Notes under the pieces: model-generated | Told to the model about the DNA's origin: nothing | The model's database searches: none | What the model saw: only the letters and a program-made list of their open reading frames with translations | Part shown: piece after piece, positions 803-57,109 of the stretch | How the letters are laid out: every line of letters begins with the position of its first letter | Position numbering within the stretch: the stretch's first letter is position 1 | NCBI GenBank assembly: GCA_033065855.1 | Contig: JAVXUO010001368.1 | Span: forward strand, 186,001 to 250,000 | Reading direction: 5' to 3' | Length of the DNA: 64,000 nucleotides | Source of the DNA: Escallonia rubra | Lineage: Eukaryota > Streptophyta > Magnoliopsida > Escalloniales > Escalloniaceae | Made by a program: the position numbers and the translations under genes

Positions 803-3800
803 TCAGAGCCTGGCAGTACGTAGTTCTTGCTTTAGCAGGGGCCGGATGTATTCATGGTATCCATCAGGCACTACTGAATCGTTTAGAGGATCCTTCCATG
901 CTGCCTCGTAGAGTTTTGGATACACATTTCCGTCATAGCATCCAAGAATTGAACCAAGGAAGTGGTCAGTGTGGTTGAATGCGTCTACAAGGGCAATTGC
1001 ATTTGGCCGGACCTAATACAATCACAAATTTTAAGGTGATACTGTGATGTCGATTTCCTTCCAACCGAAAGAAAAGGTCTCCCTTCCAACACAAAAAGTC
1101 AGTACATTTTTAGTAAATTATCAACCAACCTGCGAATACAAAGATCTGAGTTGATCATTTGCTAGTGAAGCCTGCTTTGAGGTTATACAGCCAGTAGCAA
1201 GAAAATCACCCTGATACTTGTGGAGAAGGAACAGGGCATAGATATTGCAGAGCGCCTCTAATTGTTGTTTTACCCCTTTTCCAGGAATTTCCTGTTGTAA
1301 TTTCTCAAGGAACCTGCATGAGATGCAAGTTTAAAAAGTTAAGTGCAATAGGCAAGACAGAAGCATTAGAACTCGATAGTCTTTTTCTTAGTGCTCCTAA
1401 CTGGATCTTAAATGCGTGGCAGAAAGGTCTAAAAGGCTTGGACTCCTAATAGGCGACTACCACTAACACCATAACCAACAACTTCATGTTCCATAATAAC
1501 GTGGGTAACTCCTGTCCAATTTTGAATAACAGTGTGCCAAAATGATAATTCACTTGTTCCACTGCTTTGAAGAGTCCAGCACGACTTCACAATAAAAACA
1601 TGAGATAACCAAATTTCATAAAGAGATCATCAACTCAACGGTAGCGATTTACTGAAAAATTTGCTATTGGCAGTGGGACTTTGCTGTTGTACACTCTAAG
1701 AGGTAAGCCGCACCAAAGACAATAAAAGTGAACAGATAGGATTGGGTAGAGAAGATTACTTGGTAACCACAATCAATTGGCAGTGAGCAACTGCTGCCTC
1801 AACTAGGTCAGCTGAAAGTTCCGCAAAGCCTGAATCAAAATAAGTAGAAGCACAAGCAAGTTTAAACACAAGAATCACACACTACAAAATCTTGGGAGAA
1901 ACCAACCCCTTCAATCTAAACAAGAAAGGAAAAAGGTAATGCAGGAAAAGAGGAAACCACCAAGGAATAAGAACTTAGGTCATTTAAAATCTGCAACCTT
2001 GTCGAGATGATCAAAAGATTAGGTACAAAATGTTTAAAAATGATTCACTTCTGGTGTCAGATGGATAGAAAGGCAGCTACCACATCCTCACCATGCAAAC
2101 AAACCTCCATTAAATAGCTCAATACTCAAGAAATATGTAAAAACATTTTATTTACATCAAGGCAGAAGTACCTTCTTCTGGATTCGAGAACTTGCTCAAC
2201 TTTTGAGCACAAGCAACAGACATTCTAGTAGCCCTTGCCTCAAATGCCTCCAGTATTGCACTAGGCTTCAGCCAATCCTCAGCTGCATGTCATAACGGAG
2301 ACAAAAATACAGAATTAAATTTTTTGAGGTGCACGTCGCAGTGAGACTATGTTATGAAAGTGATTTCTTCGGCAGTTTACTAGAATTGACATTCTGCAAT
2401 TATAGTAAAGACTGAGCCCACCAGGAAAGAAGGGAAAGGAAACAGATGATCTCCAACACAGACTGCGTCTTTCTGGATACTGTAGTTTCAACCGTCAATA
2501 GTTCTCTAAACTTAGGAAGCATTTCCAAAAGGAAAACATACCTCTTTGAGTATCAGATCGGCATTGCATCAGATGTTCAACACGCCCCATATAAGATGTT
2601 GTCCCCACTGGCTTTTTTTCAGAACCCAGCTGAGAGACAGTCTTAATGAGAAACCTTGCGACCTAATAATAGAATGAGATGTCAGCCAATATTTCAGTTC
2701 GAAGCACATGACAGTGGGATAATCCGGGCCAATAAAACAACAGAAAGGACTTCCATCGTTTGGCAAAAATCTTCTAAGCAAATTGGACTTCAATAACGTA
2801 ACAGCCAGAAACACCATGAGTCCACAAACTCTGCATGCAAGTACAAATGGAAAATCACATTGTGGTAATATATGTCTCATACCTGCAGAAGCAGCACAGT
2901 GTTGTCTCCTTCATATGTACAGGCAGGGACATAAACGGCAAATAATTCAGGAAGCCCACTGCTGCAAAGGTAGCCATGGCCTCCACATAGTTTCCTGCAT
3001 TCTTCAATACCATCCTGTAGCGAAAGGAGAAACCCTTTCAATTGAAGAGAAGATAAAAGGAAATCTGAATCTTTGCTATATTTAACTTAAAGATGCATTA
3101 ACAGCATTATACCACAATAATAAGTGAATGCAATTCAAAGCCATCTGCTTTACAGAACATACCTATAAACAAGTGCACAATTGACTTTCTGCAATACACT
3201 TATTTACCACATTCTATTCCAAGCTATGTACTTAAAAACAGTCTGCAAGTTTTTACAATAAGGAGTGAAGGCCTCCAGCTCTAATTTTCCTTAACCATGC
3301 CTCTCTTCTTTATGTAATGATTATGGAATTTCTCTCGTTTAAGCGAAAAATCAAATGTTAAATATCTTCTTGTGTCTTGGAATTTAGTCTAACGCTTCCC
3401 TTTATTTTAAAGGCGAAATATCCATTCTAAATATGTTTTTGGATCCTGGCAGATCGATTTCAGACAATTTTAATGACGCAAACCTGGAAATTAATATTGG
3501 AAGTTCAACCCAACAAACATGGACCTAGAGACCACTTAAAATATCTCATATATATGGAAATGTTCTCTTATTAAAGCTACAGGAGGTGGACGCAAAAGGT
3601 TTAAGGTAGGCATACAGTTAGTAGTATATACAAACTCCATATCTTAGATTCATAAATTCTTTGTCAAGCATTTGAAGTAGATAAGATCCCCATCTACCAT
3701 TTAAGATATGTCGATCATCTATACATGGTGTCTACACAAATCCAAGTAATACCCAAAAAACATTCGAACAATAAGTCCAACTGATATATGTAACCGAGGT

Positions 3801-6800
3801 TACATTATGTTTGATCAAGCAGCCAAATTGAACGATTATAAAAATCTGAATCACTGAGATCTCGGAGTCCCAAGAGTAACCCAATTTTAACACCAAATAA
3901 CAATAAGTTGCCAAAACGATGGAGATAATATCCCATTACTGACAAGTACCATATGATCAAAACTATGGATACCAATTTCCAATCCCGGCGTGAGGCTGAA
4001 AGTAGCTTAGTAAATGGTAACATCCTAATTTGAGTTGCCCTTAGCAGTAAAAAGTACAAGGTCATAGAAAAGTGAAAGTTATAGAAACTGTAGACTCTAG
4101 ATTGAATGCTCAGCAACTACTCGTTGATCACACAGGTGTCACACACGTATAGTCATTATCTAGAGAGAGCTTGAAACAATACAAGTTTGGTAGAAGAGAT
4201 CAGGTAAAATCACTTACAGCAGTGGCAGTAGTAGTCAAGGACTTCAACCCGGCAGTACATGCATGAGCCTCAGGCAAAGTTGAGAAGTCATTCGCTTGCA
4301 ATCTTTGTGTAACATCCGTGTACAACCAATTTAACCACTCGCCCACAAACCTGAAGGCATAAGCTGAAGCCAGCAAAGGGAAGAGCCTATTCTGTTGAGT
4401 TTTGTAATCAATCACCTGAAAAACAAGACAGCGGGCATTTATACATCTTCGGCGCTGGTGCAATATGATTTTTTCCAGTTCAACAGATTTTCAGACCATA
4501 TATTGTGAAGATTGTAAAGTACAAAATACGAGCACCTAAAATTACTAAGACGTGACAATTAAATTCACCAAAAACTCTGCAGCACACTTTTAGTGATATG
4601 TTCGCCTATTACAGGACTATAATACAACAGATTATTTCATAACGAGTGAAGGTCCTTGCTGCATTTTTAACTACAGAGGCCACAACCAAAAGATAGTACG
4701 CACCAAGTCCTTAGGTTTCAAGGCTGGACGTTCAGTCTACATACAAACGCGTCTATAGAATAGACACATCCCTACATCTATCCAATCCATATTGGTTCAT
4801 ACAGCTACCAGATATACGGAAAATGCCAACAGATATTTTATTTTATATTTTTCTCCACCCTACTTAATGTGACTCACGTAGCCGGCCCTCCATGTACTAA
4901 TGTACTTACTCCTTAGTGTTGCATTTCATCCCATAGTTATCCTTTAAAGTTAAGTTTATAGTGTGATTGAACTAACTCGTCCGGTAGTTATGCAAACAAT
5001 TAAGTGCTCCTGTAGCTACCCAACCCTCATGCACAACAAAGCCTTCTTTATTGATAATTAATCTCTAATTCAATCATGTTGGTGAACCATTGTGCAATCT
5101 GTATCAACTGGCCCTTCATAGAGTAATTGCTCAGCAACGCCTTCATATTTACTAGATTTCTCGTAATATCTCCAACTAATGACGGATTCAATCATCTCAG
5201 AGTAGCCTTCTCATGCATACTTTCATGTAACATGGTTCTAAGATTAAACTGCCCAGCAAGTTTCTTTCTTTCTAAATCCTATTACCTACAGTCTAAAGAC
5301 CCAAGAGAATGTTGGCACATTTGTGTATGATTAACCCAGGGGATGCTTTACAGTTTACTACGTTCCTGTCTTAATGATGAACTTTTGTAATGAGCTTAAG
5401 TTATAGTACCTAGAAGGGAGCGTCTGCTTCCACACCCTCAAATGCTTGTACACCTATGTTACATGGACTTGTACGAGTGTCAGAGTCGGATACGAGTCCA
5501 AGTGTCAGATTCATGTAATTTTCAAAACCCAAGACAAGGGGATAAGGCAAAAAAAATCCTATCCATCGTTGTTTTTTAGTTACTACTTTGTTACATGGTG
5601 TTTTGTGCGACGCATATTGTTGTACATTAAAACTTGTATCATCTCAAAGAGATCATGAAACAAAAGACACTATAAGATAGTGTTCGTAGTCGAATATCCA
5701 ATGAGATGTGTCGGACACATATCTCATACCCAAATCCTAGTGTCAAGTGTCCGACACCGGTACTTCATGCATTTTGAAGAGTCCATGTTTGTTTCTAAAA
5801 ATATTTACTTTTTAGCGACAAGTCATGGTGCGGAAAAGCATATGAGCTGTGGAAATAGACTTTCCCTAGCTAGAATCTCTATTGACCTATAAAACAACCA
5901 GATCAGCATGAAACAACCTAAGATGAAAAACTTCAGTGAGACAACGGGTAGGATGAGTTTAGCATTAGTTGGTGCTAAGAAGTCAAGCCTTCATATGGAT
6001 TTGGCGAAAGTAGCTGCTGACTTTATTCAGATGCAAATACTAGTATGTTTTACTGAAACTTTAGAGATTAACAATGGCAACTACACTTACAAGCACAAGA
6101 TATGCATACACTCACACGCACCCCAATGATAATGTTCTGCAAGCCAGTGCATGAGGCTTCGAAACCGAGGGGTCAGAGGAAGGTTGACTAGTGCAGTCTT
6201 AACCCCACTAATATAAGGAGAATAGAAAAAAGCAATAATAAAACTTACAATAGCTTATACGAAAGTTTAGACATTCCCTAAAATTTTTTAATATTTGGCC
6301 TAAAGCACATCAGTCTACCACATCTACCAAATGGAGTGGTATTCAGTTTTTCCTAAAAGCTACAAAAAGCATCTCAAAGCAGATTCAATTAACCATAGTG
6401 CAGTTACCACTAGGCTCACCACGGAGTTACCTGGGTCTCGGGTCCGCCATTCTGAGAGCCAAATTGTCTACGAACAGCACTGTATCTTGTAGCGATACAA
6501 ACTGCACGTGATAAAGCACAGGATGCATCAGCTACAATGGCTTGCCGGACATACACCATAGTACCATATACTAGCTGGCGGGGAACATCTGATTGTATAC
6601 ATTTCCCTTCCCTTGTAACCTGTAAAACCCTGACGATATTTGAACAATAACTTCAGATCCTAAAGATTCACGTAACGAGTAACTACAGAAAACACCAAAG
6701 ACGTGATGGTCCTGGAGCTTAATTCAGAACCAAAAATAGTGGTAGAGGGGTACAACTAAAACTTTGAAGTTGTAGATATGTATTGAATGCTTCACAACAC

Positions 6801-28946: not shown

Positions 28947-31422
28947 CCACTTTTCTTGTCATCAACTTTTTAGATATTTTATTCTACACTTACGTATGTT
29001 AATTTCAAGTGCAATTCAATATTAATGTTATCAATCATTCCGAGTATAGAAATAAATTCTCTATTTATTTCTTGCCTACTGCATTCAACATATCTTAATA
29101 CAAAATCAATGACAAATTCATGAGAAATAAAATATTAGAATTTTTTGATTTTTTCCGTACATATATAAGTACGATAAACTAGAAGTGAACAAAGATTTTA
29201 AAGCCTTGAATTTTTTGTAACTCAATTACATAATATAAGAACTAATAGAAAACTTATGTTATTGTAATTTTTTGGGTTATCATTCATTAACCATCGCCTT
29301 CCAAAATTATACAAGCTGCTTCGAGTTCAATTAATTCACCTAGCAAATTACTGTTGTTTATTGATTGTTTCTATTAGATTGTCAATTCAATCCTAAGTAC
29401 AATTTATAATTGTTCTATGTTGTCTATCTTTGTAAAGGTACACAAAGAAAGACGTGTTTTGGAGAGATGTGTTTTAAGAATAATTCTCTTTAGTATTTTA
29501 GTTTACTAAATTTCATATACAACAGTAAGTCGATCAAAAAATAAGATATAAATGGCTCAGGCTTTGCTTGGTCTGATCATATTCTTTTCCTCATTTACTT
29601 TTTTTATTCATGCGACACGTCATCACATTTGTTTTGTTGTTCCATTCCGTATTCAACTCTACTTATTAAAGTCACACGTACGTGTATTTTATGACTCTAT
29701 ACTATAACTTATTGTTTTTTTCACAGGTACTATTCACATAAGTTTAGTAAACCTTATAAGAGTTAAAAATAAATTATGCGCCTTTTTAAACTCTACCTAT
29801 TCAATATACTTACATGTTAGGTCTTAATTTTGACTACTAACATTCAAAAGCACCTTAAGATAAAATAAAATCTCACAATTGTAAAAAACGAACCTTATTT
29901 ATGCAATCAAAGATAAATAATTCCCAAATTAAGAGCTTTCTTTTGTTTTTTTAAGAAAATAACATACAAACTGAATACGACTTAATTCTTAAAAATACTT
30001 TAAAATATCAACACTGCCATTTACTTAAGAAATTAATTTTAATAGAATAACCTCGAACTCTTAATTTTAGAATGACATATACCACTAAATGCAATAATAA
30101 TAAAAAAAGAATCAAATTGACAGTGACTTAATCCTTAAAAGAACTTTAATATACCAAAATAACAGTTTGATTTTTAAGATTAATAATTAGAAATAAACAT
30201 TAGCATGCATGTTTTTTTAATGTACTTAATTTATTACATAATTTGATAAATCAGAAAATTCTTTTCATTGAAAATTTTCACCCGGCCATTCATCTATACA
30301 TTTCATTCATAAGGTTACGGGACACTCATGATATACAAAGATTCATCTTTTAACCTCATTCATTTGTAAAATTTTTGTACAAGATGAAGCGTTATACATT
30401 GTGAAACTGACACATAAGATTTTTTCAACATTGTTTTCGTTCTTAATTACTCTTTTACTTAAGCGTCGCATCATCATCATTCTTTTGGTTCTTCTCCATT
30501 TTTGTTTCTACTTATTATGTTTTTACAATGGATTTTATCAAAAAATTTGAGGCTATAACTGGCGTGATTAATACTTAAAAGTATTTTTAAACCATCAAAA
30601 TAATAAGATAGTTAAAAAATTAGTTTTATTTATATAACCTCAAACGTTTACATAAATCACATTCACTTATAGATGATAAAAAAAAAAAGAGTCAAACCAT
30701 ATATGACTAAAATTTTAAAAGTACTTTAAGATATTGAAATAACATTTTACTCCACAAATTCGTTTTTAATTAAATAACCTCAAATTCTAAAGGTTCACCT
30801 CATGTACTAATTAAGTTACTAGGATTTAATTTGATTACTAGAGCTTAAATAAAGTTTAAATATAAAAAAGAAGTTCTAATAGTATGTGAAATAAAAATTA
30901 AATCTGAAAATAAATGTTATAGCTCATAAATCCAAAACTATTTTATATACTCTTAATCAATAAGTGGACTTATGATGACTAAATTATGACTTTAATAACC
31001 TAAGTATATCGTTTAATATGAACTTAATTGACAATCTATGGTCTATTTAAGGATACGAATAATCACCATTATCTAATTATTTATCTCAATCTTTTGAAAA
31101 GTTTGTATAAAACAATATGACACTTTTATGATAAATTGAAATAACAATTAACTGTAGAATATACATATTAGGCCTTAAATTTGACTATTAACCTCATAAG
31201 GACTTTAAACAACGACATAGAATATATAAATTATGAAAGTCATATGCGATATTTTATGATAAATACTTCACAAACTAAAATATTTCTTTTCTTTTTAATT
31301 GCCCAACCTCAATATTTTACAATGTTACATGGGGTAAGAACAATAATGACTTTATAACCATTTAACTTCAATCATGTGCAAAGCTTTTGAAGAACACTAT
31401 GACATTTTTTTGATAAATTAAA
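28947..31422. other. Long AT-rich intergenic stretch with diverged repeats
   Basis: No gene is supported. A loosely conserved unit (about 'cttaaaagtactttaagata' followed by 'taatagaataacctca'-like text) recurs near 29985, 30125, 30570 and 30700. Phrases like 'gcgacacgtcatcac' near 29620 echo the Helitron-like stretch at 19085. It probably consists of old transposon layers. Confidence 0.45.
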
Positions 31423-32473
31423 GGGCAAATTACATCTATATCCCTGAGGTTAGGGTATAATTACAGTCAAGGACAGTAAGTTTTAAAATGTAACATACCG
31501 TGACCAAACACTTTTAAAATGTAGCAGCCGTGTCCATCCGTCAGGGTTCCGTCCAAAAAATGTACTTTTTTAATGATGTCATCAATATGTATTTTTAAAA
31601 TGACGATACTACCCCTTGTCATGTATATACTGAATATTTTTAAAAATTTTAAATTAAGATTTCAAGCCATAATTTAAAGTCACAATGTATCACCTTGCAA
31701 ATTAGGATTTTGTTAAAACCCGAATTTGCAAATTAGGGTTTTGTTTGCACACAGTGAAGGTCTTGCGCGACAATGCCCGACCATAACTTCCTGCGCTCCC
31801 ACCCTCTCTCCCCTCCGTCGTCACCTTCAATTGCATCGAGGACACTGCCTTGGAGCAGGAATGCCTCGTCGGCGTCGAGCACGTCTTGCTTAGCCGCCTG
31901 GCAGAGGCCAGGATCGAGTCTATCGCCGCCGTCCTCCTCCACTCGCTCGCCTTTCTTCCCCGCGTCGCCCAGCGCCGCCTCCGCCCCTGGCAGCTGGTCC
32001 TCTTCCTCCGTCGGACTCACCTGCTCTCGCGCTATCTCTCTTGCCAACTGGAGAAGTAAAACTAATAGGAGAAACCGGCTGGTAAGAGTGACGCACTGAC
32101 ACTAATTTCCGGCCAGTAAAAGCAATCTGCACCCAAGGGCAAAGAAACTCCAACGACTGACACTAATTTTCGGCGTCCCCTTCGTCCTGTTCGGCGATTC
32201 CTTCGTCTTCGGCATCGACAGTTCTCAGGCTGCCCTTCACCCCATCTCCCCTCAGTGGTGCCATTGTTGTCTGTGCGTGTCTGTAACATTGAAGAGGAAG
32301 ACATGGGCAAATTAAGAATTTCAATTTTATTTAGGGGCAATTCAGTCTTTTCGTCAAAATCGTTATGTATTTTTGTATTCCATTTGGTCAACGGACATAA
32401 GTGTAATTTGTCCAAACTATTGTCCTTGCCTGTTATTATACCCTAACCTCAGGAACATATGTATAATTTGCCC
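31423..32473. mobile_element. Pack-MULE (Mutator-like) carrying a host gene fragment
   Basis: This 1051-bp element starts GGGCAAATTACATCTATATC, and its right end read in reverse starts GGGCAAATTATACATATGTT. It is flanked by perfect 9-bp duplications taaattaaa (31414-31422 and 32474-32482), diagnostic of Mutator-like elements. The ends belong to the same family as the MULE at 48188-57100. The GC-rich interior carries an ANGUSTIFOLIA-like exon fragment (31817-32030). No transposase is present. Confidence 0.88.
31817..32030 (+). pseudogene. Captured ANGUSTIFOLIA (plant CtBP-like) exon fragment
   Basis: The frame starting at about 31817 reads VVTFNCIEDTALEQECLVGV, then residues including LLSRLAEARIES, VLLHSLAFLPR and AQRRLRPWQLVL, and finally RRTHLLSR. 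From memory, plant ANGUSTIFOLIA proteins near their N-terminus have the same blocks in the same order: VVTLNCIED, ALEQ, LSR, IES, VLLHSLAYLPRAAQRRLRP, and later LLRRTHLLSR. Here about 40 residues between QLVL and RRTHLLSR are missing. The upstream ATG at 31773 is in another frame. ANGUSTIFOLIA acts in cell shape and gene regulation; this piece is only a transposon passenger. Confidence 0.75.
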
Positions 32474-32482
32474 TAAATTAAA

Positions 32483-33529
32483 ATAATTATTAGCAATACA
32501 ATGTACGCATAGTTTTAAATTGATTGTCTTAGAAAACCTTCAAAAATAAATCAGAACAGATGGGTTCACAAAAACGTCAAACATGACCTTGAAGGAAAAT
32601 AATTAAACCCAAATATTGCCACTAGACAACGTTATATTATCTCATAAAATTAATTATTTTAAAAGGGTGTTTATTTGAAAGTAAGTAAAATAGCTCCACG
32701 TGTTTCCATTTTTGCCTAAAACTCTATTTTCACGGCACATACTAGTAGGTTATTTAAGTATACATAATAATTTATTAATAAATAGTTTGTACCTTTTTTT
32801 ATGATTTTGAATGCAGATGACTGTAATTCCTATCTAATTTATTAATAATAATTAGCTATATCTAAAATATCTATAAAATAAAATGTTGATAAATTAAATG
32901 ACGTGAGCCAGAAAAGTGGCTCATTGAGCCACTTTTATGGCTCACATCATTGATCAACATTTAATTTTTTCACTTATTTACGTACCAGCAGTTGACCAAC
33001 GTATTATGCGATATTGATATAACAATGCAAACGATAGTCACTAGATTCTGATACATAACAATTAAAGAAGGATATAAAGAACTAGAAAATTATCATGTTA
33101 TTGAAAACTCAACACATTTTTACCTTGACAGTAATTTTAGACACATTGTATAAACTATTAGCATGATGATGCACAAAAACGAGATATATTTTCAGTATTT
33201 TACACAGTTATCGTCAATACTATTTTAATTGTCTTAAGTAGTGGGTTAATTTGTTCATAAAATTATATACATGAGTGATTTTGATTATTATGTATATATG
33301 CATTACTTAAGTGAAAGTCATTCTATTTGTCATTCTTTCAATTTAAAACATAATCGCCTACGCTATAATATATGATTGATGATAAAATCAAACTGTCTCT
33401 CAACCCGACCAAATTAGATGCACGGGTCCAGTAGCTCAGCTAGTCACATGAATGTCAAGGTACAGTGTCACGTCGTCGGAGTATAGAACCACAGAACCAC
33501 AGACCCACATATGTGTCTTGGACGGTGGC
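32483..33529. other. Intergenic DNA before UGT copy 2
   Basis: AT-rich without a supported gene. It contains the fold-back sequence at 32880-32970. Confidence 0.45.
32880..32970. repeat. Small fold-back element
   Basis: Outer arms begin AAATGTTGAT on both sides, and inner arms GTGAGCCA(g/t)AAAAGTGGC pair around a very short loop. The whole unit of about 85-90 bp can fold into one long imperfect hairpin. Confidence 0.7.
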
Positions 33530-33741
33530 GAGTGTGGGGGTAATCACATGCTAGCTTGAGACGGACACGTTATCAGTTAGCCAAAATCCAAGATATCTCA
33601 CTACGTAGGAGGATTTGAAGGGTAGCTAGAGGTACTTCACGTGTTCATAATTCCATCTCAATTGGCTGAAAATAGCGAGTGCTAGATATTTTCTCACTTT
33701 AAAAACACATGCATGGACCTTTGCTAGAGAGAGGGACAGAG
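33530..33741 (+). promoter_or_regulatory. Conserved upstream region of UGT copy 2
   Basis: It matches the copy 1 upstream region in blocks: 'aaatccaagatatct', 'ctacgtaggaggatttg' and 'ctttgctagagagaggga' just before the ATG. It has a full CACGTG G-box (near 33640) where copy 1 has only ACGTG. Confidence 0.55.
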
Positions 33742-36350
33742 ATGGAGTTTGCGAGAAAAGCTAAGCCTCATGTTGTTTGTATACCATTTCCAGCACAAAG
33801 CCACATAAAGGCAATGCTTAAACTAGCAAAGCTTCTCCATAACAAGGGCCTTCACATAACTTTTATCAACACAGAGTTTAACCACAAGCGTTTCGTCATT
33901 GCTGGGGGACCAAACTCCCTTGATGGCTTGCCGGATTTTCGCTTCGAAACTATACCAGACGGGCTTCCTCCGTCCGACGCAGACGCCACCCAAGACATGA
34001 TTGCTCTTTCTGAGTCAGTTAGGAGAACTTGTTATGCTCCATTTCTTTACCTGTGCAACAAGCTTGATAACCCTCCGGTGAGTAGCATCGTGTCAGATGG
34101 TTTCATGACCTTCACCTTTGATGCGGCAGAAGTACTTGGAATCCCTGTTATACTTTTCTGGACACTCTCTGCTTGTGGTTTCATGGGATTTTGTCAATGT
34201 CAAGCTCTCTTGGAGAGAGGCCTGATACCACTCAAAGGTACTCCCTCAAGCACTACTTTAGGTCTGTAGAGACCACAACACATGCCACGGTTGCCTTGAG
34301 GAGAGATCTCTCTTCCTTTTGGTACACCGCCAGAGGAATGCTACTTGTGTTTAAAAAAAGGGTTGCCCGACCCCGCGTGACCCGCATGCGCATCTCTTCC
34401 TTTAACGAAAGCCAGGATCCAATCCTAGACCATTAACCCGTTACCCGACCCATCCACCCGACCCGCACACTGCCTCTCTCTCTCAACCCTAATAACAAAA
34501 AAATATATATATATATATATCCTAATCCCTCATTTCCTTCTTCACGCCGCACACCTTGGTGCCGCCGCCGCCCCTACGGCCTCACTGCCGCGCCTCCCCA
34601 TCGCCGGCATCCCCCACGCCCGATCACCATTCTCCCTCTATTCCATCCTTCATCATCCCCGGCCCTCCCCGCCGGCAGCCCCGCACCGTCCTTCCTCTTC
34701 CCCTTATTTTCCCTTCTTCACCTCGAGCGTCGGCCACTCACCAAGGCCGAACACCCCACCTCAAGCTTCGGCCACTCACCAAGGCCGAACCCCCCACCTC
34801 AAGCTTCGGCCTCCTCTTCCCCCTCGGCCTCCATCTTCCTTCCCACATTTGGCCACTCCTCAAGACCGCCGCTGACCACCCCACCGGCCTAAACCTTTCA
34901 TCTAACCTAAAATTCCAAATTGTGTTCGTAACCCTAGTTAGGAAATACCAAATACCAAATACCAAATCCCAAAATTGCCTCTGACGGAAAGGGATATATC
35001 GTTAGGAATTTGGACGGTGGTCCTTACTTATTGCAAATTTGAAATTACAAATCTTTATGTGTAAAAAATAAATTTGGGACCCTCAAGTGAGACTTCGATA
35101 TACTTTCAAGGTACTAACGTATATTTAACATTAAAAAAATTTGCCTAACACCTTAATTAGTTTGATTCCAAAAGAATGTGACCCTCAATTCATGCCTTCG
35201 AAAACGTTTCTCATGATAGATTACGTATCATTTCCTAAATTCCTATGTTTGAAGTACTTGGGCTATCGTTCCTTAATTCATCATTTTTTTCAAAATTTTG
35301 AACAAGAAGGTGAAGGGAGTGGTGTTTCTTGAAGAAGTTTTCTGTGCTAAAAAAGTAACAAGTCTTTTTTTTTTTTCTTTTTTTCTGGAACATGCAGATG
35401 AGAGCTATCTAACAAACGGATACTTGGACACCGTCGTAGATTACATTCCGGGTATGAAAGATATACGTCTCAAGGATTTCCCAGGGGTTATTCGAACTAC
35501 CAATCAAGACGATTTTCTTTTGAACTTCGGCTTGGAAGCTACCCAGAGGTCTTATAAAGCTTCAGCAAATGTTATACAAACTTTTGATGCCCTGGAACCA
35601 GATCTTGTAAATGCTCTCTCAACAATGCTTCCTGACCTTTACACCATTGGCCCTGTTCAGCTTCTTCTAAACCAAACATCATTACCATCAGAAGAAGAGC
35701 ATCTCAAGTCTATTGGATACAGTCTATGGAAAGAAGAACATGTGTGTCTTGAGTGGCTCAATTCCAAAGGACCAAACTCTGTGGTATATGTAAATTTTGG
35801 TAGCATAACTGTTGTAACACCCCAACAGTTGGTAGAGTTTGCTTTAGGTCTCGCTAATAGCAACCAACCATTCCTGTGGATAATCAGACCTGACCTAGTG
35901 GTGGGCGAATCTCCAATTTTACCGCCTGAGTTTGTGGAGGTTACTAAGGAAAGAGGGTTCATTGCAAGTTGGTGCCCGCAAGAGCAGGTACTCAACCACC
36001 CATCAGTTGGAGGGTTCTTGACACACTGTGGTTGGAACTCCACAATCGAGAGCTTGTCGTCTGGGGTGCCAATGATTTGTTGGCCGTTTTTAGCCGATCA
36101 GCCGACAAATTGTAGATTCATTTGCAAAGAATGGGAGGTTGGCATTGAAATCGATGATGTGAATGCTGAAAAAATTGAGAAGCTTGAAAGAGAGTTGATT
36201 GAAGGAGTAGAAGGAAAGAGAATGAAGAACAAGGCCATAGAGTGGAAGAAAAGGGCAGAAGAGGCTACTGCTCCAGATGGGTCATCGTCATTGAATTTTG
36301 AAAGATTGGTGAAAAATCTTTGGTCCCATAGAACTAGCATTTCCTCTTAA
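33742..36350 (+). CDS. UGT85-like UDP-glycosyltransferase, copy 2 (intact)
   Basis: Same structure and length as copy 1: exons 33742-34237 and 35398-36350, joining G|AT, 482 residues. His21, Asp119 and the complete PSPG box ending in DQ are kept, so it should be a working glucosyltransferase if expressed. Differences from copy 1 include Phe for Leu near residue 126 (TFTF), a Tyr for Trp at the start of exon 2 (VDYIPG), and Ala for Gly just before the PSPG end (FLADQ). Its intron is about 1.16 kb against 0.41 kb in copy 1, because repeat DNA of about 780 bp lies at 34358-35142. The acceptor is unknown. Confidence 0.92.
34358..35142. mobile_element. Insertion in the intron of UGT copy 2
   Basis: Comparison with the copy 1 intron shows extra sequence between 'acttgtgttt/aaaaaa' and 'ccttaatta/ggtttgat'. 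The right part (34990-35135) matches the inverted-repeat family at 45200-46035 (ttggacg..gtccttacttattgcaa, ...gaccctcaagtga). The left and middle are C-rich low-complexity DNA. The two edges do not form a clear inverted pair, so it may be composite. Confidence 0.6.
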
Positions 36351-48187: not shown

Positions 48188-48389
48188 GGGCAAATTACAC
48201 CTATGTCCCTGAGGTTTGGGGGTAATTACACGCGAGGACGCAAAGTTTCAAAATGTAACACATATGTTCATTGACAAACGGAATACAAAAATACTTAACG
48301 GTTTTGACAAAAAGACTTGATTGCCCCTGACTTTAAAATAAATTACCCACTTAATTTACTGTTTTTTCTTCCTCTCACTACAAGAAAAC

Positions 48390-48612
48390 AGGGTTTTAGT
48401 GACGGAATTTGGCTCCGTCACTAAAATTCCGTCACCTAAAAGGCTTTTAGTGACGGAATTTACTCCGTCACTAAAATTCCGTCACCTAAACTAACCAATG
48501 TTAAGAAAACAGATTTTTAGTGGCGGAATTTGGCTCCGTCACTAAAATTCCGTCACCTAAAAGACTTTTAGTGACGGAATTAGCTCCGTCACAAAAATTC
48601 CGTCACCTAAAA
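48390..48612. repeat. Left subterminal repeat array of the CACTA element
   Basis: Pairs of 'tttagtgacggaattt' and 'aaattccgtcac' recur about every 60 bases and form short palindromes. The right array is at 55690-56200. Confidence 0.9.
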
Positions 48613-48869
48613 CTAATAATTCTAATTTTAATTATTTTTTGTTTTTTTTTTAGTTTTGAAAAAATCCCCAAATGTTAAAATTAGGGCTTTTTCTTTTCGT
48701 TGAAGAAAATCCCTCCATCTCTTTGAGCTCCTCCCGCCGCCTCCTTTCTCCCCAACTTCTCACCGGCCCCCTCCCTTTCTCCCCATTCCGTCACCGCCGG
48801 CCAAGGAAGCCACATAGATGGACAACCAGCTGTAAGCCCGAAGCCACGACGAGACCGCGAGCTCGAGCC

Positions 48870-49045
48870 GCGAACGGCGAGCTGCGAACGGCGAGCTGCG
48901 AGCGGCGAACGGCGAGCTGCGAGCGGCGCACGGCGAGCTGCGAGCGGCGAACGGCGAGCTGCGAGCGGCGCACGGCGAGCTGCGAGCGGCGAACGGCGAG
49001 CTGCTAGCGGCGCACGGCGAGCTGCAACGGCGATTCAGGCGAACG
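48870..49045. repeat. 21-bp tandem repeat in the CACTA 5' leader
   Basis: Variants of 'gcgaacggcgagctgcgagc' repeat about eight times. In one frame they encode a reiterated heptad (ERRTASC). A splice donor-like AAAG|GTATGT at about 49254 and acceptors before 49720 suggest that the array lies in a leader exon rather than in a protein. Confidence 0.8.
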
Positions 49046-49719
49046 GCGAGCTGGGAGCGGCAAGCAGCTTGCGGATCTGCTGCTACGGACGGCCACCTCT
49101 GCCGACGCCGGCAGCCGCTACCGCCACACGCGGACGGAGGGCCACCTCTGCTCCATTCATCCGGTCACTCCACTCCACCGGACCACCGGCGCTAACGGCT
49201 CTGAGCTCCCAGCCGTTTTCCGTCTTCACCACCGGTGGGCGAATCGGCGACAAAGGTATGTTCCGAATTCTGAGTTCCGAATTGATTGAAGATTGATGAT
49301 TATTGAGATTATTGATTATTGATTGTGATTATTGATTATCTGAGTTTCGAATTGTGATTATTGATTGAGATTATTGAGATTATTGAGATTGTTGACGGAG
49401 GATGGGACCCAATTGGATTTAACGTGTGATTATTGAGATTGTTGACGGAGGATGTGACCAATTGGATTGAATGTGCGATTTAGTTGAATGATAGTTGAAT
49501 GGTCGGTTGAATGTGCGATTTTGTTATTGATTATCTGAGTTCCGAATTATAATTTGGTAATTAGTATCAGAGTTATATAGTGTTATTCATTGTAGGGATT
49601 GAACTAGCAGAGATATTGGAATTTTTTATCTAGGTCTATGGGTATTGTGAGCATTACTACGTTGTGGATATTATTACGAGTTATCATGTTGGTTGTAGGT
49701 TATTTCTATACAAGTAATC

Positions 49720-52700
49720 ATGTCAGTTGATAGAAGCTGGATGTCAAGAAGAATTAACGGGGGTTTACTAAGTGAGGATTTTAGACAGGGAGTGATAGAA
49801 TTCCTCAACTTTGCCTATAGCCACCTTGATTTTGTGGACAACGGTAGGATTAGATGTCCGTGTGCGAGCTGCAATCTATTGGAGTGGAAAGAGGCTGTTT
49901 ATGTTAGATTGGATCTTTACCAAAAAGGCTTTATAAATGGCTATACCTTATGGTTTCAACACGGAGAAGAAACCCCGGTGCAACAGACCGATACCTACAC
50001 TATGCAAAATGAGGGAGAGGATGAAGGCAATACGTATCGGGACATGCTAATTGATGTTGGTCAAGCTGAATTTAATCATGATGATGGATCGTCGACTGAG
50101 CCTAATGATATGGCTAAAAAATTCTATGATCTGCTCAGAGAAGCAGATGAGCCAATATGGTTTGGCTCGAAGAAGCATAGTAGGTTGTCGGCGGTAACTA
50201 GGTTATTACACTTGAAGTCTGAGAGTGGGATGAGTGAAAACGCATTTAACCTTATGGTGACTTTTATGAAGGAATTGTTGCCACAGAATGAAAAACTACC
50301 GGGTTCGTACTATGATGCAAAGAAAATGGTTATGACACTTGGTTTGGGGTATGAGAAGATACATGCGTGCAACAATGATTGTGCAATATTTTGGAACGAG
50401 TACAAGGATTTAACAAATTGTCCGGTTTGTAATCACCCAAGGTACAAACCAAACAGGGGGAAAAAGAAGAGCGTACCTTGGAAGATATTACGATACTTTC
50501 CGGTTACACCAAGACTTCAAAGGCTATATTATTCGCGGAAGACAGCCGAGCATATGAGGTATGTCGTCACTCGTCCCAAACAAAATAGTGTCATGAGTCA
50601 TCCGGCTGATGCAGAGGCATGGCAGCATTTTGATCGTATGCACCCTACTTTTGCTGAAGATGCTCGGAATGTGAGACTTGGATTGGCAACTGATGGATTC
50701 AATCCATTTGGGCACTCAAGCACGCCTTACTCTACTTGGCCAGTATTTCTTGTTCCATATAACCTTCCCCCTCACTTGTGCATGAAGCAGCCTTACATGT
50801 TTATGTCACTTCTCATTCCAGGGCCAAAAAGTCCAGGAAGGGACATAGATGTGTATTTGAGGCCGCTGATTGATGAGCTTAAGATGTTATGGGATCAGGG
50901 TGTTCCAACCTTTGATGCATCTCTCAAGGAAAACTTCCAACTGAGAGCTGCCGTGATGTGGACCATTAACGACTTTCCAGCTTTAGGGATCATGGCAGGT
51001 TGGAGCACGCATGGTAAGTTAGCTTGTCCTTGTTGCATGGACTTAAACGAGGGGTTCACCTTAAAGTACGGGGACAAGCCTTGTTTTTTCGGATGCCATA
51101 GAAAAATGTTACCCGAAGATCATCCTTTTCGAAAGCAAAAGGACAAGTTTGACAAAATAGTTGAGGGTCGTGTTATGACGGTAGACCGTTTACTTGGGGA
51201 TGAGGTGTTGGGATATGTCAATGCACTTGAGAATGTACCGCCATTTGGGAAAGGTTTTGCAGATCAGAAAATTTCAGGATTTGGGAGAACACACAATTGG
51301 AAGAAAAAAAGTATCTTTTGGGAGTTAATCTATTGGCCAACACTTCTTGTTCGACACAATTTGGATGTAATGCACGTCGAGAAGAATGTATTTGACAATA
51401 TCTTTAACACAATTATGAATGTCAAGGGAAAATCAAAGGACCACATAAAGGCAAGGAAAGATCTGCAGAGAATGGGCATACGGACCGAATTGCATCCCGT
51501 AGTGATCAATGGGAAGATTGTATTGCCAAAAGCATCTTACACATTTGATAAGGTCCAGATAGAACAAGTATGTCAATGGGTCAAAAAATTAAAGCTCCCA
51601 GATGGTTATGCAGCAAATATATCCCGTTGCTGCAATTTGTTTGATTGTAAGTTTTACGGGATGAAAAGCCATGATTGTCATGTCTTTATGGAAAGACTTC
51701 TTCCTCTTGCAATCCGTGAATTTTTGCCTAACCCAGTATGTGAAGCTTTGACCGAACTCTCCCATTTCTTTCGCGATTTGTGTTCAAAAGTCATCAAGGT
51801 AAGAGATATGAAGATACTTGAAAAAAGTATTATAGAAACAATATGCAAGCTTGAGAAGATCTTTCCACCATCATTCTTTGATTCAATGGAACACTTACCT
51901 ATTCACTTGGCGTATGAAGCTAAAGTGGGCGGACCGGTGCAGTATCGATGGATGTACCCATTTGAGAGGTACTTTTTTGTATTATTTGCTTTTGTATTAT
52001 TACCCTCTCAATTGAGTTTAATTCAGTAAAAATGTATAAAACTAGGTGTATGCTTGGATTGAAGAAAAAAGTTCGTAATAAGGCTTGCGTAGAGGGTTCA
52101 ATTGCAGAGGCCTCCATTGTTGAGGAACTTGTCAATTTTTCCTCACTTTATTTTGAATCGGACATTGAGACAAGGTTGAATCGACTGAGTCGAAATGAGG
52201 ATGGGGAACAACTCGAAGATTTAGAAGGTCAATTATCAATATTCACCCAGTCGGGTCGTCATTTTGGATCTAACTCTACTCGTTGGTTAAGTAATGAGGA
52301 GCATGATGCCGTATCATTATATGCCCTTCTTAATTGCCCGGAAGCACAAGAACTCATTGAGTAAGTAATTTTTCCTTTATGTGTATTAAGCTTATGTATA
52401 TGAGAGAGTCATAACTTATGTTATCATGTAGTGAGTTCGATAAGGAAGCAGAATTTGTCAATCCGGCAATCTCTGATAAAGAACTTGAAGAAAATCGTAA
52501 CAAGGAGTTTATTAGATGGTTCCAATTACGGGTAAGTATTGAACGTAAATTTTTTGGATGAATGATAACTTATCGCACTTAATATATGAACAATTCTTAT
52601 TTAAACTGTGTTGTAGGTTCAGCGGAATAACGAACCTGTTGATGCTCGTTTGAAAGACCTTGCTTGGGGTCCTAATAAACTCGTGTTATGTTACAAAGGT

Positions 52701-53324
52701 TTTATTGTAAATGGCTTTAGGTTTAACACAAAAGAACATGACCAAGGTAAACAAACGCAAAATAGTGGTGTTTTGGTGAAGGGGGACTGTTATAATGATG
52801 CTGCTTGTGATTTTTATGGACAACTTGACGAAATCATCGAGTTAGAGTATTCTGGCAGGGGAAATCGACTGGTTATGTTCAAATGTACATGGTTTGACAT
52901 TACGTCAAGAACCAATTTTCGTGTTAGTAGACATGGGATTGTCGACGTAAACATGAAATCAAGGCTGGCTTCAAATGACCCATTCGTCTTTGCTTTTCAA
53001 GCTTCGCAAGTGTTTTATGCAGATGCTGTTTCAAAAAGGAATATGAAATGGTCATCAGTTATTAGGACTAAGAAAGTTGAAGTTTCAGATGTACCGGATA
53101 CATACCAGGAGGATGAAGCTTCTGCTCCGTTACATGCTAGAGTAGATGAGATCGTTGACGACGTGCCTCTTCACGCAGTAGGTCAAGTTGGGGAGGAAGT
53201 AGGAGATGACGAGATCAGTGCATTGTATAATAATGATCATGAGACAAGTAGTGATGACGGAGAAGAAGATGAAGACGAAGAGGAACATGAAAATGAAGAC
53301 GAAGAAGATGAAGAGTTTGATTAA
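49720..53324 (+). CDS. CACTA transposase, TNP2 type, four exons
   Basis: This is the presumed transposase that recognises the CACTA ends and catalyses excision and insertion. Exons 49720-51968, 52046-52360, 52432-52531 and 52617-53324 use GT/AG sites and keep one frame of 1123 residues with no internal stop. Visible parts: an N-terminal transposase-associated domain (start MSVDRSWM, CPCASC near residues 46-51), a Transposase_21-type core, a DUF4218-like part spanning the exon 1/2 join (VQYRWMYPFER, then KKKVRNKACVEGSIAEA), and a DUF4216-like part in exon 4 (LAWGPNKLVLCYKGF). The tail is strongly acidic. Order and length are typical of plant En/Spm elements. Introns are short (70-86 bases). 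Confidence 0.9.
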
Positions 53325-53516
53325 ACACATTGTATTCATGATGATTGTCATGTATTTTGTGTGCACATTAGCTTGCTTTCATGTGATTCACAGTACGGTG
53401 TTTAATTTTGTATGTTAGCAACACGTTTATCGACTTGATATCTCACAGGTTTATATGCTTATATTAGTTAACTGCAGTCGAACTTTTCTTTGATGAATTG
53501 TTATGTTTTAGTCATT

Positions 53517-55348
53517 ATGCAGCGTTCCACTAGCTCTCGGGGTCGAGCACGATCTCGAGCTGTATCGACACCTATTGTTGGACCCGACCCGAGCGTCGAG
53601 CAGCCCCTTGACCCAGCTAGCCTTGGCGTGACGCAACCTGGGGAATCATCAGTTGTATCTGCAAATGCAAGTGGTATAACTATAACTTAATTACATTTCT
53701 TCCTTTGCCCTTTGTTTGTTTATCAATGTTGCATTACTTTTCTATTACATTTAACAGCTCCTCGCCGTGGCCGAGGTCCGACACGTGGTCTGTTAGGTCG
53801 ACCGGATCAACCAAAGGAAACAATAGATATTGTTGATGGAAAGTACATGCCTACTCTATAGTATTTGATATTGTTTTCTTATGATTGATTATCGAATTCT
53901 ATTGTTTTTTGGCTCCCTTACTGATATTTATGTATGTAATCATATAGCATTGAAAGTGACAAAGCAAGGACCGCAATAAGTGGTATTGTGAAATCATGCA
54001 TTAGAGGACCTTGGTCTGTGTGGTCTGATTGGAAGGATGAAGAAATTTTAAAGGAGCAGATTTGGAGTAGGTTCCTTGTAAGTTGAGTTGACGTGTTTGA
54101 TTTATAGGACTAATTATTTAATTATGTTCATGTTTCAGTCTCACTTTATAACATGCATTGTGGCAGGATTCTTTTACTTTTGTGGACTTGGCAGAGGGTA
54201 AGAGAGCTTTCTTCAAGCACGTAAAACAAAATTATCACAAGTGGTTCTGTGCAGCAAGGGCACATGCGCGTAAAAGTTCTGGGGAAGGAGCTGATTTGGA
54301 GATGTGGAAAGCCTACCCTCCTCGGTGGCTAACCCCTACTATCTGGACCTCGATGGTGGATAAATGGAAACACGAGGAGTGGGAACGCAAATCTGAGCAA
54401 GGCAAGAGTGCACGTAGCAACAGTGCATCTCATACTGGTGGTTCCGTACCACACCCTGTTCTCGAGCATAGGAAGCGTTTACAACATCCAACGATGACTA
54501 AAGCACTAGCCAAGTAGGTAGTTTACGAGGACACCCACCGTCTAAAGAATAAGCAAGGCAAGCCATATGTGACCGAAAAAGCGGAGAAAATCAGGGTAAG
54601 ATTCAAACCGTTTCACTTTATATATTAGTTAATGCGTAAGATCATTTCTGCCCTCTTCACCTGTCTAACATTCAAAGTGATATTTTTAATTGTATAATTG
54701 TCTCAACACATGTATTGCATTGTCCGTAGGATGCCTTTAAGTCTAAGGTAGAAGCTGCTCAGCCAATGAACTCGGAGAATGACGTTGAGGAATTGTGGCT
54801 CACTGTACCGGAGGTCCTTGACAAGAAAGGACGTGCAGTTGGTCTTGGAACACGCGGACCACCACCACGGGCGAGGTTGAGCAGCATAGAAGGATCATCT
54901 AGACGGGTCACAGCCACACATATTGTGACTGAGGATATGCCTGATCACTGGAAGCCACAACTGCGTATCTTCTTTGAAGAATTTATGCAAAACCATAAGG
55001 AACCAGAGGCATGTCATGTGGAGGGACATCAGGCTGAGGTACATATTCATGTATGTGTGTGTATGTGTGCGTGGAAGGGATTTTGGGTGGGTTCTATCAC
55101 CGTGGTAATGGAAATAGTGAGTTTGCTTAGATAATGACTTAAGTGTAGTCTAATTAGATTATGTGCGGGCATATATGATTCATGATTCTTCACCATATTA
55201 TTTATGATGTGAATTTTTAGTAATTGTTAGTTAAATTTATCTTTATATGATTGTGCAGCCATCCAGAAATACTGAGGAGGATGATGATGATGACAATGAT
55301 GATTTGGATGCCAATGAGGAGTATGACCTTGATGAGGATGGAAATTGA
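53517..55348 (+). pseudogene. CACTA second gene, Transposase_24 type, one in-frame stop
   Basis: The predicted exons are 53517-53673, 53758-53842, 53948-54077, 54167-54595, 54730-55038 and 55259-55348, all with GT/AG sites and matching phases. The N-terminus is Arg/Gly/Ser rich (SSRGRARSR). The middle matches the plant Ptta/En/Spm Transposase_24 pattern: a tryptophan-rich segment (GPWSVWSDWKDEE), WKHEEWERKSEQGKSARS, then SHTGG and YEDTHR. The C-terminus is acidic (EEDDDDDNDD). A TAG codon at 54515-54517 interrupts exon 4 shortly before YEDTHR. It follows the transposase gene by about 190 bases on the same strand. A TnpA-like accessory role is inferred from position. Confidence 0.75.
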
Positions 55349-55689
55349 GTGACCAACTAATCCCCTCTCTTTAATTTGAAAGGTTTAAACATCAACTTAC
55401 TTTCATGTTTAAGGATGATCGCTACTATGTGATAGTTTAGGATTTGTGTTGGACTTGGTATTTTATGTGTTTGTGAACTTGTGGAGTTTGTGTTGATGAA
55501 AATTGTGGAGGTTGATTTGGTAATGGATATTGTGTTAATGGATTTTGTGGAGATTGACGTAGTAATGGATTTTGTGAAGATTGACGTAGTAATGGATTTT
55601 GTGTGCTTGATGAGTTGATGGATTTGTTGTATACAGGTTTGAAAAAAAAATGGGATTTCAAAAAAATAGGTGGAACTATACTTCTTTTG

Positions 55690-56200
55690 TTTTATAATTT
55701 TAGCGACGATTATGATTTGTCGCTAAAAGCATAAAACATTGATAAAATACCTTTAGTGACGGAATTTTTCCGTCACCATTTATTTTAGTGACGTATTTCA
55801 TGTGACGGAATTTTTCGTCACCAATTATTTTTTGTGACGTATTTATGTGACGGAATTTTCCGTCACCAATTATTTTTAGTGACGTATTTATGTGACGGAA
55901 TTTTCCGTCACTAATTATTTTTAGTGACGTATTTATGTGACGGAATTTTCCGTCACCAATTGTTTTATACGAAATTAAAAAAAGATATTCGAAATATAAA
56001 ATACCTTTAGTGACGGAAATTTTCCGTCACTAAATGTCTCCATTCCGTCACTGAATTTAGTGACGGAATCGTTAATTCCGTCACCAGCTTTTTAGTGACG
56101 GGGGTATAGGTGACGGAAGCGTGTGACGGAATTTTCCGTCACTAAAACTTTTAGTGACGGAAATTGCGTTTTTAGTGACGGAAATTTCCGTCACTAAAAA
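55690..56200. repeat. Right subterminal repeat array of the CACTA element
   Basis: At least ten copies of 'agtgacg(g)a' and 'ttccgtcac' in both orientations, including a regular run of units of about 50 bases ('gtgacgtatttatgtgacgg') at 55790-55960. Confidence 0.9.
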
Positions 56201-57109
56201 CCTGTTTTCTTGTAGTGTCTCCCCACACCCGCACCCCCACCCCCTCCCCCCCCCCCCCCCCCCCCCCAACGCCGTCTGCCTCTTTCTCTACCCACACCCC
56301 CCGCCCCCACGCCGTCTGCCTCCCCTTTCCCCGTCACCCGCCCACCCCGTCATGCCCACAACCCCCGATCAGCGTAGTAGCAGGCCCTCCGGCGAGGCAC
56401 CGGCACCGCAAGATCGCGGTCTCACTCCCGATCTGCCTGACGCCATACTGGTCGCCACCATCACCGTCGCGACCTACCTCCATACCCCGCGCCGTCCGAG
56501 ATCACAAGCATCACCGAGCTACGTCGCGACACCGGCCTCCTCCTCCGAGATGTGCGCCACCGTGACCACCAACCAGGCAGCTCCACCACCACCATGATGG
56601 GCTTGCAATGGCCAGATCTGTCTCCTTCCCATCCAGTCTTCCTCCTTCCCTCGCCAAGGGCTTGCCGACGTGGGGGGGCAAGTCTGCCGGATGGTGGGGC
56701 GAGGGGGACTGCCGGCGACGTGGGTTTGCCAACGCGCTTGCTGGAGGCGTCTCGACAGCTTGGGTTTGCCAAGGGGCTTGCAGGCGTGGTGGGGTGGTTC
56801 TGCAAGATGGTGGGGCGAGGGGGGCTGCTGGCAGCGTGGGGCGGCGAAGGGGGGCTACCGGCGGTGACTTCAGATTTAGGGTTTAAATTGTGGAGAGAGA
56901 AAATTAGGATATCAACAGGGGTAGTATTGCCATTTTCAAAATACGTAATGACGAAAATTACACTTTTTGGACGGAATACTGACGGTTGGATAAAAGTGAT
57001 ACTTTGTTTAACGTTTTTGGTCACGTATGTTACATTTTGAAACTTTGTGTCCTCGCGTGTAATTACCCCCAAACCTCAGGGATATAGGTGTAATTAGCCC
57101 ATTATTTAA

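Follow-up and report, generated by a model that had tools for sequence, protein, structure and literature searches.

Identification of a Mutator-type element upstream of a UDP-glycosyltransferase gene

The window is the whole 64,000-nucleotide stretch of Escallonia rubra DNA that was analyzed (GCA_033065855.1, contig JAVXUO010001368.1, positions 186,001 to 250,000). The glycosyltransferase genes expected from the original prediction are present: PF00201 was recognized in all four C-terminal-half UDP-glycosyltransferase ORFs tested, and the N-terminal-half ORF 33703-34266 returned no Pfam match. Approximately 1.2 kb upstream of ORF 33703-34266 is a 1,051-bp Mutator-type element (MULE) with long inverted ends, located at 31423-32473. 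Its features, in window coordinates, are as follows.

31414-31422, no strand: left copy of the target-site duplication (TSD; TAAATTAAA), a single copy in related empty sites
31423-31478, plus strand: left terminal inverted repeat (TIR), the arm pair being 86% complementary
31479-31745, plus strand: left subterminal AT-rich MULE sequence, common to many family members
31767-32008, plus strand: ANGUSTIFOLIA (AN) exon 1 fragment, part 1, corresponding to 4527-4778 of the parental locus L029; 86% identical
31773-32099, plus strand: frame-shifted 108-aa frame from the retained ATG (the second in-frame ATG of the gene, L029 4533), unconserved among copies
31787-32059, plus strand: open AN frame of 90 aa between two stops, lacking an ATG
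32006-32032, plus strand: AN exon 1 fragment, part 2, corresponding to L029 4905-4931; 26 of 27 bases identical, joined at CTC with 129 bp (43 codons) missing
32033-32161, plus strand: stretch linking the AN fragment to the right-hand core, no source found
32162-32329, plus strand: right-hand GC-rich segment, also present in MULEs that yielded no AN; no parental gene found
32330-32417, plus strand: right subterminal sequence
32418-32473, minus strand: right TIR
32474-32482, no strand: right copy of the TSD (TAAATTAAA)

The inverted arms (31422-31478 and 32418-32474, the outermost base of each being part of the target duplication) are 57 nt in length and 86% complementary, as in long TIRs of the Mutator type. 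The flanking 9-bp duplication is perfect and lies within the 8-11 bp of Pack-MULEs; the chance identity of two random 9-mers in this AT-rich flank is about 4e-5. A genome search with the left flank indicated that the target is a multi-copy repeat among the matches listed (40 of 310 candidates scored), and most of these matches stopped at query positions 521-524, the insertion point. Indeed, each of three paralogous flanks retrieved (L070, L071 and L072) was continuous across the insertion point and lacked the element; two contained a single copy of TAAATTAAA, and L072 a one-base variant. As these empty sites are without the element, insertion and target duplication are demonstrated beyond what could be deduced from the ends, confirming the predicted Mutator-like element and its duplication. 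An empty site within the window's own glycosyltransferase duplications was rejected because the duplicated flank stops short of the element, and copies of the repeat were used for this reason. The flank that received the insertion (approximately 29000-33400) is itself a repeat with many genomic copies (40 of 310 candidates scored).

The element is transposase-free, with a longest stop-to-stop frame of 126 aa in its 1,051 bp. Pfam searches of four plus-strand frames gave a single insignificant match, DSBA at E 0.087.

The cargo derives from exon 1 of the ANGUSTIFOLIA gene

The search of the genome (566 Mb in 3,222 contigs) with the element frame led to an open exon of 211 aa on a separate contig (G000:C1007, locus L029), so that the parental gene anticipated in the same genome was found. 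Residues 22-203 of this exon aligned with CtBP1 structures (E 6e-12). Two parental exons were compared with PF02826, the later exon matching at E 4.5e-8 and exon 1 weakly at E 2.4e-4, with a score of 21 bits that is below the curated cut-off of 25.1 bits. A CtBP-like NAD-binding domain thus extends over several exons of L029, as in AN genes, which also encode a plant-specific C-terminal portion. The name ANGUSTIFOLIA is used on the assumption that the parent resembles Arabidopsis AN both in its first exon and in the C-terminal one, for which L029 gave no Pfam match. Exon 1 contains two in-frame ATGs (L029 4488 and 4533) and has a GC content of 70%, compared with approximately 41% in two later stretches. 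A search with L029 6516-8811, a 2.3-kb region of later exons, in which 39 of 39 candidates were scored, returned no other genomic copy: all non-parental matches fell within an intronic repeat at query positions 979-1146. On the basis of this search, AN looks single-copy.

The element core and exon 1 were identical at 216 of 252 bases (E 5e-82) and, beyond an internal gap, at 26 of 27. The gap corresponds to an in-frame deletion of 129 bp, or 43 codons, with CTC at both edges (microhomology). These alignments bear out the predicted AN origin and internal deletion, and the absence of AN/CtBP similarity, set beforehand as the outcome that would count against that reading, did not occur, the similarity being far above chance. 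A fortuitous likeness of GC-rich, low-complexity sequence, with which the lack of a Pfam match for the AN-like frame itself and its insignificant best solved-structure match (E 1.5) would be consistent, is refuted by 86% DNA identity over 252 bp that resumes past the deletion, and its probability is negligible. The AN identity of the fragment is established because the genome's own AN gene matches it, and not by the Pfam or structure searches. The frame 31820-32059, which translates to VTFNCIEDTALEQECLVGVEHVLLSRLAEARIESIAAVLLHSLAFLPRVAQRRLRPWQLVLFLRRTHLLSRYLSCQLEK followed by a stop, was seen as originally described; that it is without a start codon of its own had gone unmentioned.

The element therefore carries a captured host-gene fragment whose parental copy, AN exon 1, is present in the genome, as in a Pack-MULE. 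Where "captured host exons" had been proposed, the capture stands and the plural does not: by its sequence, the cargo is a portion of a single exon, to which two relatives add 5′ flank. The link of the GC-rich core to AN was likewise upheld for the AN fragment, with the reservation that the right-hand segment 32162-32329 also occurs in MULEs where no AN was found. One frame of this segment reads PFVLFGDSFVFGIDSSQAALHP, and no parental source for it was found in the genome search. An FGDS motif in 32162-32312, presumed to suggest a GDSL-type sequence, led to this stretch being considered as a second cargo; the candidate was rejected on the grounds of no significant Pfam or PDB match and no genomic parent.

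The MULE copies share one capture

The AN exon 1 query, with 40 of 69 candidates scored, produced at least 46 matches. These fall at a minimum of 40 places, of which one is the parent, and some of the 39 further places are duplicates of one insertion. Examination of 47 non-parent loci identified 34 with AN and MULE ends or subterminal sequence, nine with AN and without these, and four with no AN. Flank comparison revealed three duplicate pairs (L032/L033, L043/L045 and L053/L058), reducing the 34 MULE loci to 31 insertions. The TSDs of the 34 AN-bearing MULE loci were perfect at 9 bp with unshifted ends in 14, perfect at 9-11 bp with one end shifted by 1-2 bases in three, 9 bp with one mismatch in eight, and poorer or absent in nine. 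The TIR pattern, with at most one mismatch, matched the genome 2,408 times (1,207 + 1,201), and the reversed-pattern control had 0 matches; given this number of matching ends, the AN carriers are a small fraction of a large MULE family. MULE transposases are abundant in the genome (150 scored of 3,309 candidates), and no autonomous MULE with matching ends could be linked among the 150 scored. One 13-kb TIR pair was taken from approximately 100 listed matches, and no transposase was recognized by eye in the three long ORFs of its central 7 kb.

An alignment to the gene was used to compare the captured fragments, with column 1 at L029 4401, column counts from 27 of the 34 MULE loci, and one of the two C2600 copies outside the sample. 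A 1-bp loss in a run of C was present in 16 of 16 MULE copies covering and aligning there, L038 and L039 having been set aside. A T occurred at column 335 in 26 of 26 MULE rows covering it and at column 374 in 20 of 21, and the MULE copies retaining the middle of the fragment all had T at 444 and C at 474 (5/5 each). Because the 1-bp loss and these diagnostic columns are common to them, the MULE copies appear to go back to one capture of the AN exon. L032 and L033, which are two copies of one insertion, hold the longest captured stretch, L029 4291-4939 (649 bp); in the subgroup of the window element the middle of the fragment has been lost. In L031, L032, L033, L036, L037, L041 and others, the AN fragment has the opposite orientation with respect to the ends, which indicates a past inversion of the interior or exchange of the ends in these MULEs.

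The element in the window is, with high confidence, a non-autonomous MULE (Pack-MULE) whose cargo is a decayed part of the first exon of the host AN/CtBP gene. The alignments are best accounted for if an ancestral MULE took up an AN stretch of up to 649 bp that began about 197 bp ahead of the first ATG and ran into exon 1, and if this cargo then spread together with the element to 31 or more sites. Deletions trimmed the cargo, here by 129 bp at the CTC microhomology, with reversal in some relatives, and the window copy inserted into an older repeat upstream of the UDP-glycosyltransferase gene. Capture may have occurred through gap repair or template switching between the MULE and the GC-rich exon. 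Amplification was presumably by transposase supplied in trans, the element being multi-copy with TSDs, and the cargo would be a neutral passenger encoding nothing under selection.

As such, the element is an ordinary, typical Pack-MULE. In common with those of rice, maize and other plants, it has long TIRs, a 9-bp TSD and no transposase, and carries a GC-rich host-gene fragment that has an identifiable parent and has been amplified, with no basic difference.

A second carrier of AN exon 1

The nine loci with AN and without MULE ends (L049-L052, L054-L056, L059 and L062) carry all or part of AN 4694-4927 within an element of another kind. At L049 this element extends from 1541 to 3119 (G000:C2506) with TTA on both sides, as expected of a TTA/TAA TSD, and is inserted in a 79-bp tandem array of which an uninterrupted unit is found at 1454. 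It has short TIRs in the form of near-identical 12-nt ends (GAGTCTGTTTGG and GACTCTGTTTGG), seen in L049 only, and no intact copy of this end motif was found in the eight other loci. The ORFs L051 2918-3394 and L055 2790-3311, which are taken to be HARBI1-like, had no Pfam match at E 0.1. From the ends and TSD of this one copy, together with the presumed HARBI1 likeness, L049 is classified as a PIF/Harbinger-like insertion. Assignment of the second carrier to the CACTA elements was rejected, there being no exact CACTA ends in the nine loci of 2.5-3.7 kb. L051 and L052 are 99.4% identical over 3,679 bases and are likewise duplicates.

The tree comprised 36 of the 44 AN-bearing rows (parent, 34 MULE loci and nine second-carrier loci), with post-deletion columns masked in 16 rows; L043, L045, L046 and L052 were absent from the alignment, and L038, L039, L042 and L044 were badly aligned and left out. 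A branch with support of 95/99 separated the eight second-carrier rows and the parent from the 27 MULE rows, and the second carriers alone were grouped at 89/87. Consistent with this, the second carriers were without the MULE-diagnostic states, having C at 335 in 6/6, T at 374 in 0/8 and A at 474 in 2/2; at column 444 one of eight has the MULE-diagnostic state. Conversely, T at 441 was present in 8/8 second carriers versus 1/5 MULE copies, and columns 492-501 (10 bases) were kept in L049 and L050 and are missing from the five MULE copies reaching there. Over columns 298-491, L049 and L050 differed from the gene at 12/193 and 16/184 positions, and the MULE copies retaining this stretch at 27/176, 28/188, 21/194, 19/175 and 20/130. 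Derivation of the second carrier from the sampled MULE copies is thus disfavored by the tree and the diagnostic columns.

Other observations argue against independence. The AN range of the second carrier falls within that of the MULE, and divergence does not separate the two carriers over columns 298-378 (pooled 0.101 versus 0.092-0.126) or columns 382-450 (3-14 changes of 68-69 versus 8-13 of 59-69). Columns 390 and 481 mostly show one and the same departure from the gene in the two carriers; Arabidopsis AN presumably has valine at the residue of column 481, in which case the gene itself would have changed there later. Alternatively, the second carrier may have obtained its AN piece from a MULE copy just after the MULE's capture and before any diagnostic change. 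An independent capture of AN exon 1 by the second carrier is nevertheless the reading that is favored, as probable, and is held a little less firmly than it might be because of the overlapping divergence at columns 382-450.

Small-RNA and coding effects of the captured fragment

Apart from being passengers, the element copies could be a source of small RNAs acting on parental AN. Transcription through either orientation of a copy would yield 21-24-nt RNAs matching exon 1, and AN would be silenced or methylated. The window copy and AN have exact stretches of 38 and 30 nt in common, the longest exact match in seven other copies (four MULE and three second-carrier) is 24-47 nt, a length sufficient for siRNAs, and the AN fragment occurs in both orientations relative to the ends among copies. 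Such identity, however, is necessary and not sufficient, and the parental exon is still open over 211 aa. A passage of a 2026 review describes maize Helitrons, Pack-MULEs and Sireviruses with captured sequence as siRNA reservoirs (PMC13317346). Small-RNA action on AN is therefore judged possible, and improbable for the copies examined here.

The fragment might also code for a shortened AN/CtBP peptide with a function, or for a new protein by overprinting, since the window copy has a stop-free AN frame of 90 aa and an ATG frame of 108 aa, the latter being 108-111 aa in L004, L005 and L006. However, in the remaining 12 of 15 copies compared this frame is 18-45 aa long. The window copy keeps only the second ATG of the exon, and the 1-bp loss lies downstream of both ATGs and thus severs the AN frame from them, leaving the retained ATG out of the AN frame in 16 of 16 comparable copies. 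Singleton changes in nine close copies were also consistent with neutrality in all three frames. In the AN frame, 23 synonymous, 50 missense and 0 nonsense changes were observed, compared with 26.5, 44.3 and 2.2 expected from a CpG-aware model with the same spectrum, and the other two frames were without constraint (P 0.53 and 0.16). The zero nonsense singletons versus 2.2 expected (P = 0.10) are a weak hint against neutrality. In line with neutral decay, two of the nine copies have a stop that interrupts the AN frame. Mean pairwise dN/dS, before allowing for the C-to-T-rich spectrum, was 0.58 among the nine copies and 0.33-0.73 versus the parent. The values below 1 and the missing nonsense singletons are read here as effects of this spectrum and of small numbers. 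The regulatory or coding effect originally suggested was thus not supported by the tests made, in which the retained ATG proved to be frame-shifted and codons showed no constraint, and from the reading frames a protein function is unlikely, for the peptides named above extremely so. Relative to AN/CtBP proteins, the fragment has its origin in exon 1 of the AN gene in common with them and differs in its out-of-frame ATG, the deletion of 43 codons and the absence of most of the protein.

AN exon 1 as a probable recurrent source of transposon cargo

Of lasting interest is that a single GC-rich exon appears to have been used more than once. The comparisons lean toward AN exon 1 being a recurrent hotspot from which Mutator and PIF/Harbinger elements separately took overlapping pieces, no copies of the tested GC-poor later exons having been found. 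If true, what determines capture would be the donor sequence, with its GC-rich 5′ exon, and not the transposon's own machinery. AN would serve as a natural control, with a sharp GC boundary between an exon 1 matched at at least 39 further places and a region, L029 6516-8811, which apart from its intronic repeat is matched nowhere else. With two superfamilies as carriers, donor DNA versus the transposon as the determinant of capture becomes testable across genomes.

Pack-MULEs are reportedly mentioned in the text of a brown-alga study that surfaced in a search on independent capture. In a literature search on Pack-MULEs together with ANGUSTIFOLIA, AN exon 1 was not found in print as Pack-MULE cargo, and no AN fragments in transposons were apparent from the titles listed. 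A passage on MULE-derived genes of Oryza describes their parental sequence as mainly GC-rich (PMC4858842), and one on animal Pack-TIRs describes gap filling with microhomology of 1-36 bp, median 2 (PMC8277862). Pack-TYPE elements of the Harbinger-PIF superfamily are described from rice and maize in part of the report by Gisby and Catoni (2022, PMC8903248), and L049 and its relatives appear to be of the same kind. The clustering described there excluded independent captures of one sequence by different TEs, "that should be rare"; here, in contrast, one exon has apparently been taken by two superfamilies, which bears on that working assumption.

A second MULE in the window

A second MULE of the same family is present at 48188-57100, with ends GGGCAAATTACAC and TGTAATTAGCCC and flanks AATATTTAA and ATTATTTAA that are alike at 8 of 9 positions; its own core is GC-rich. 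It is split by a CACTA element (48376-56217) with CACTACAAGAAA ends and TCT on both sides, which encodes a tnp2 transposase (PF02992, E 4e-87).
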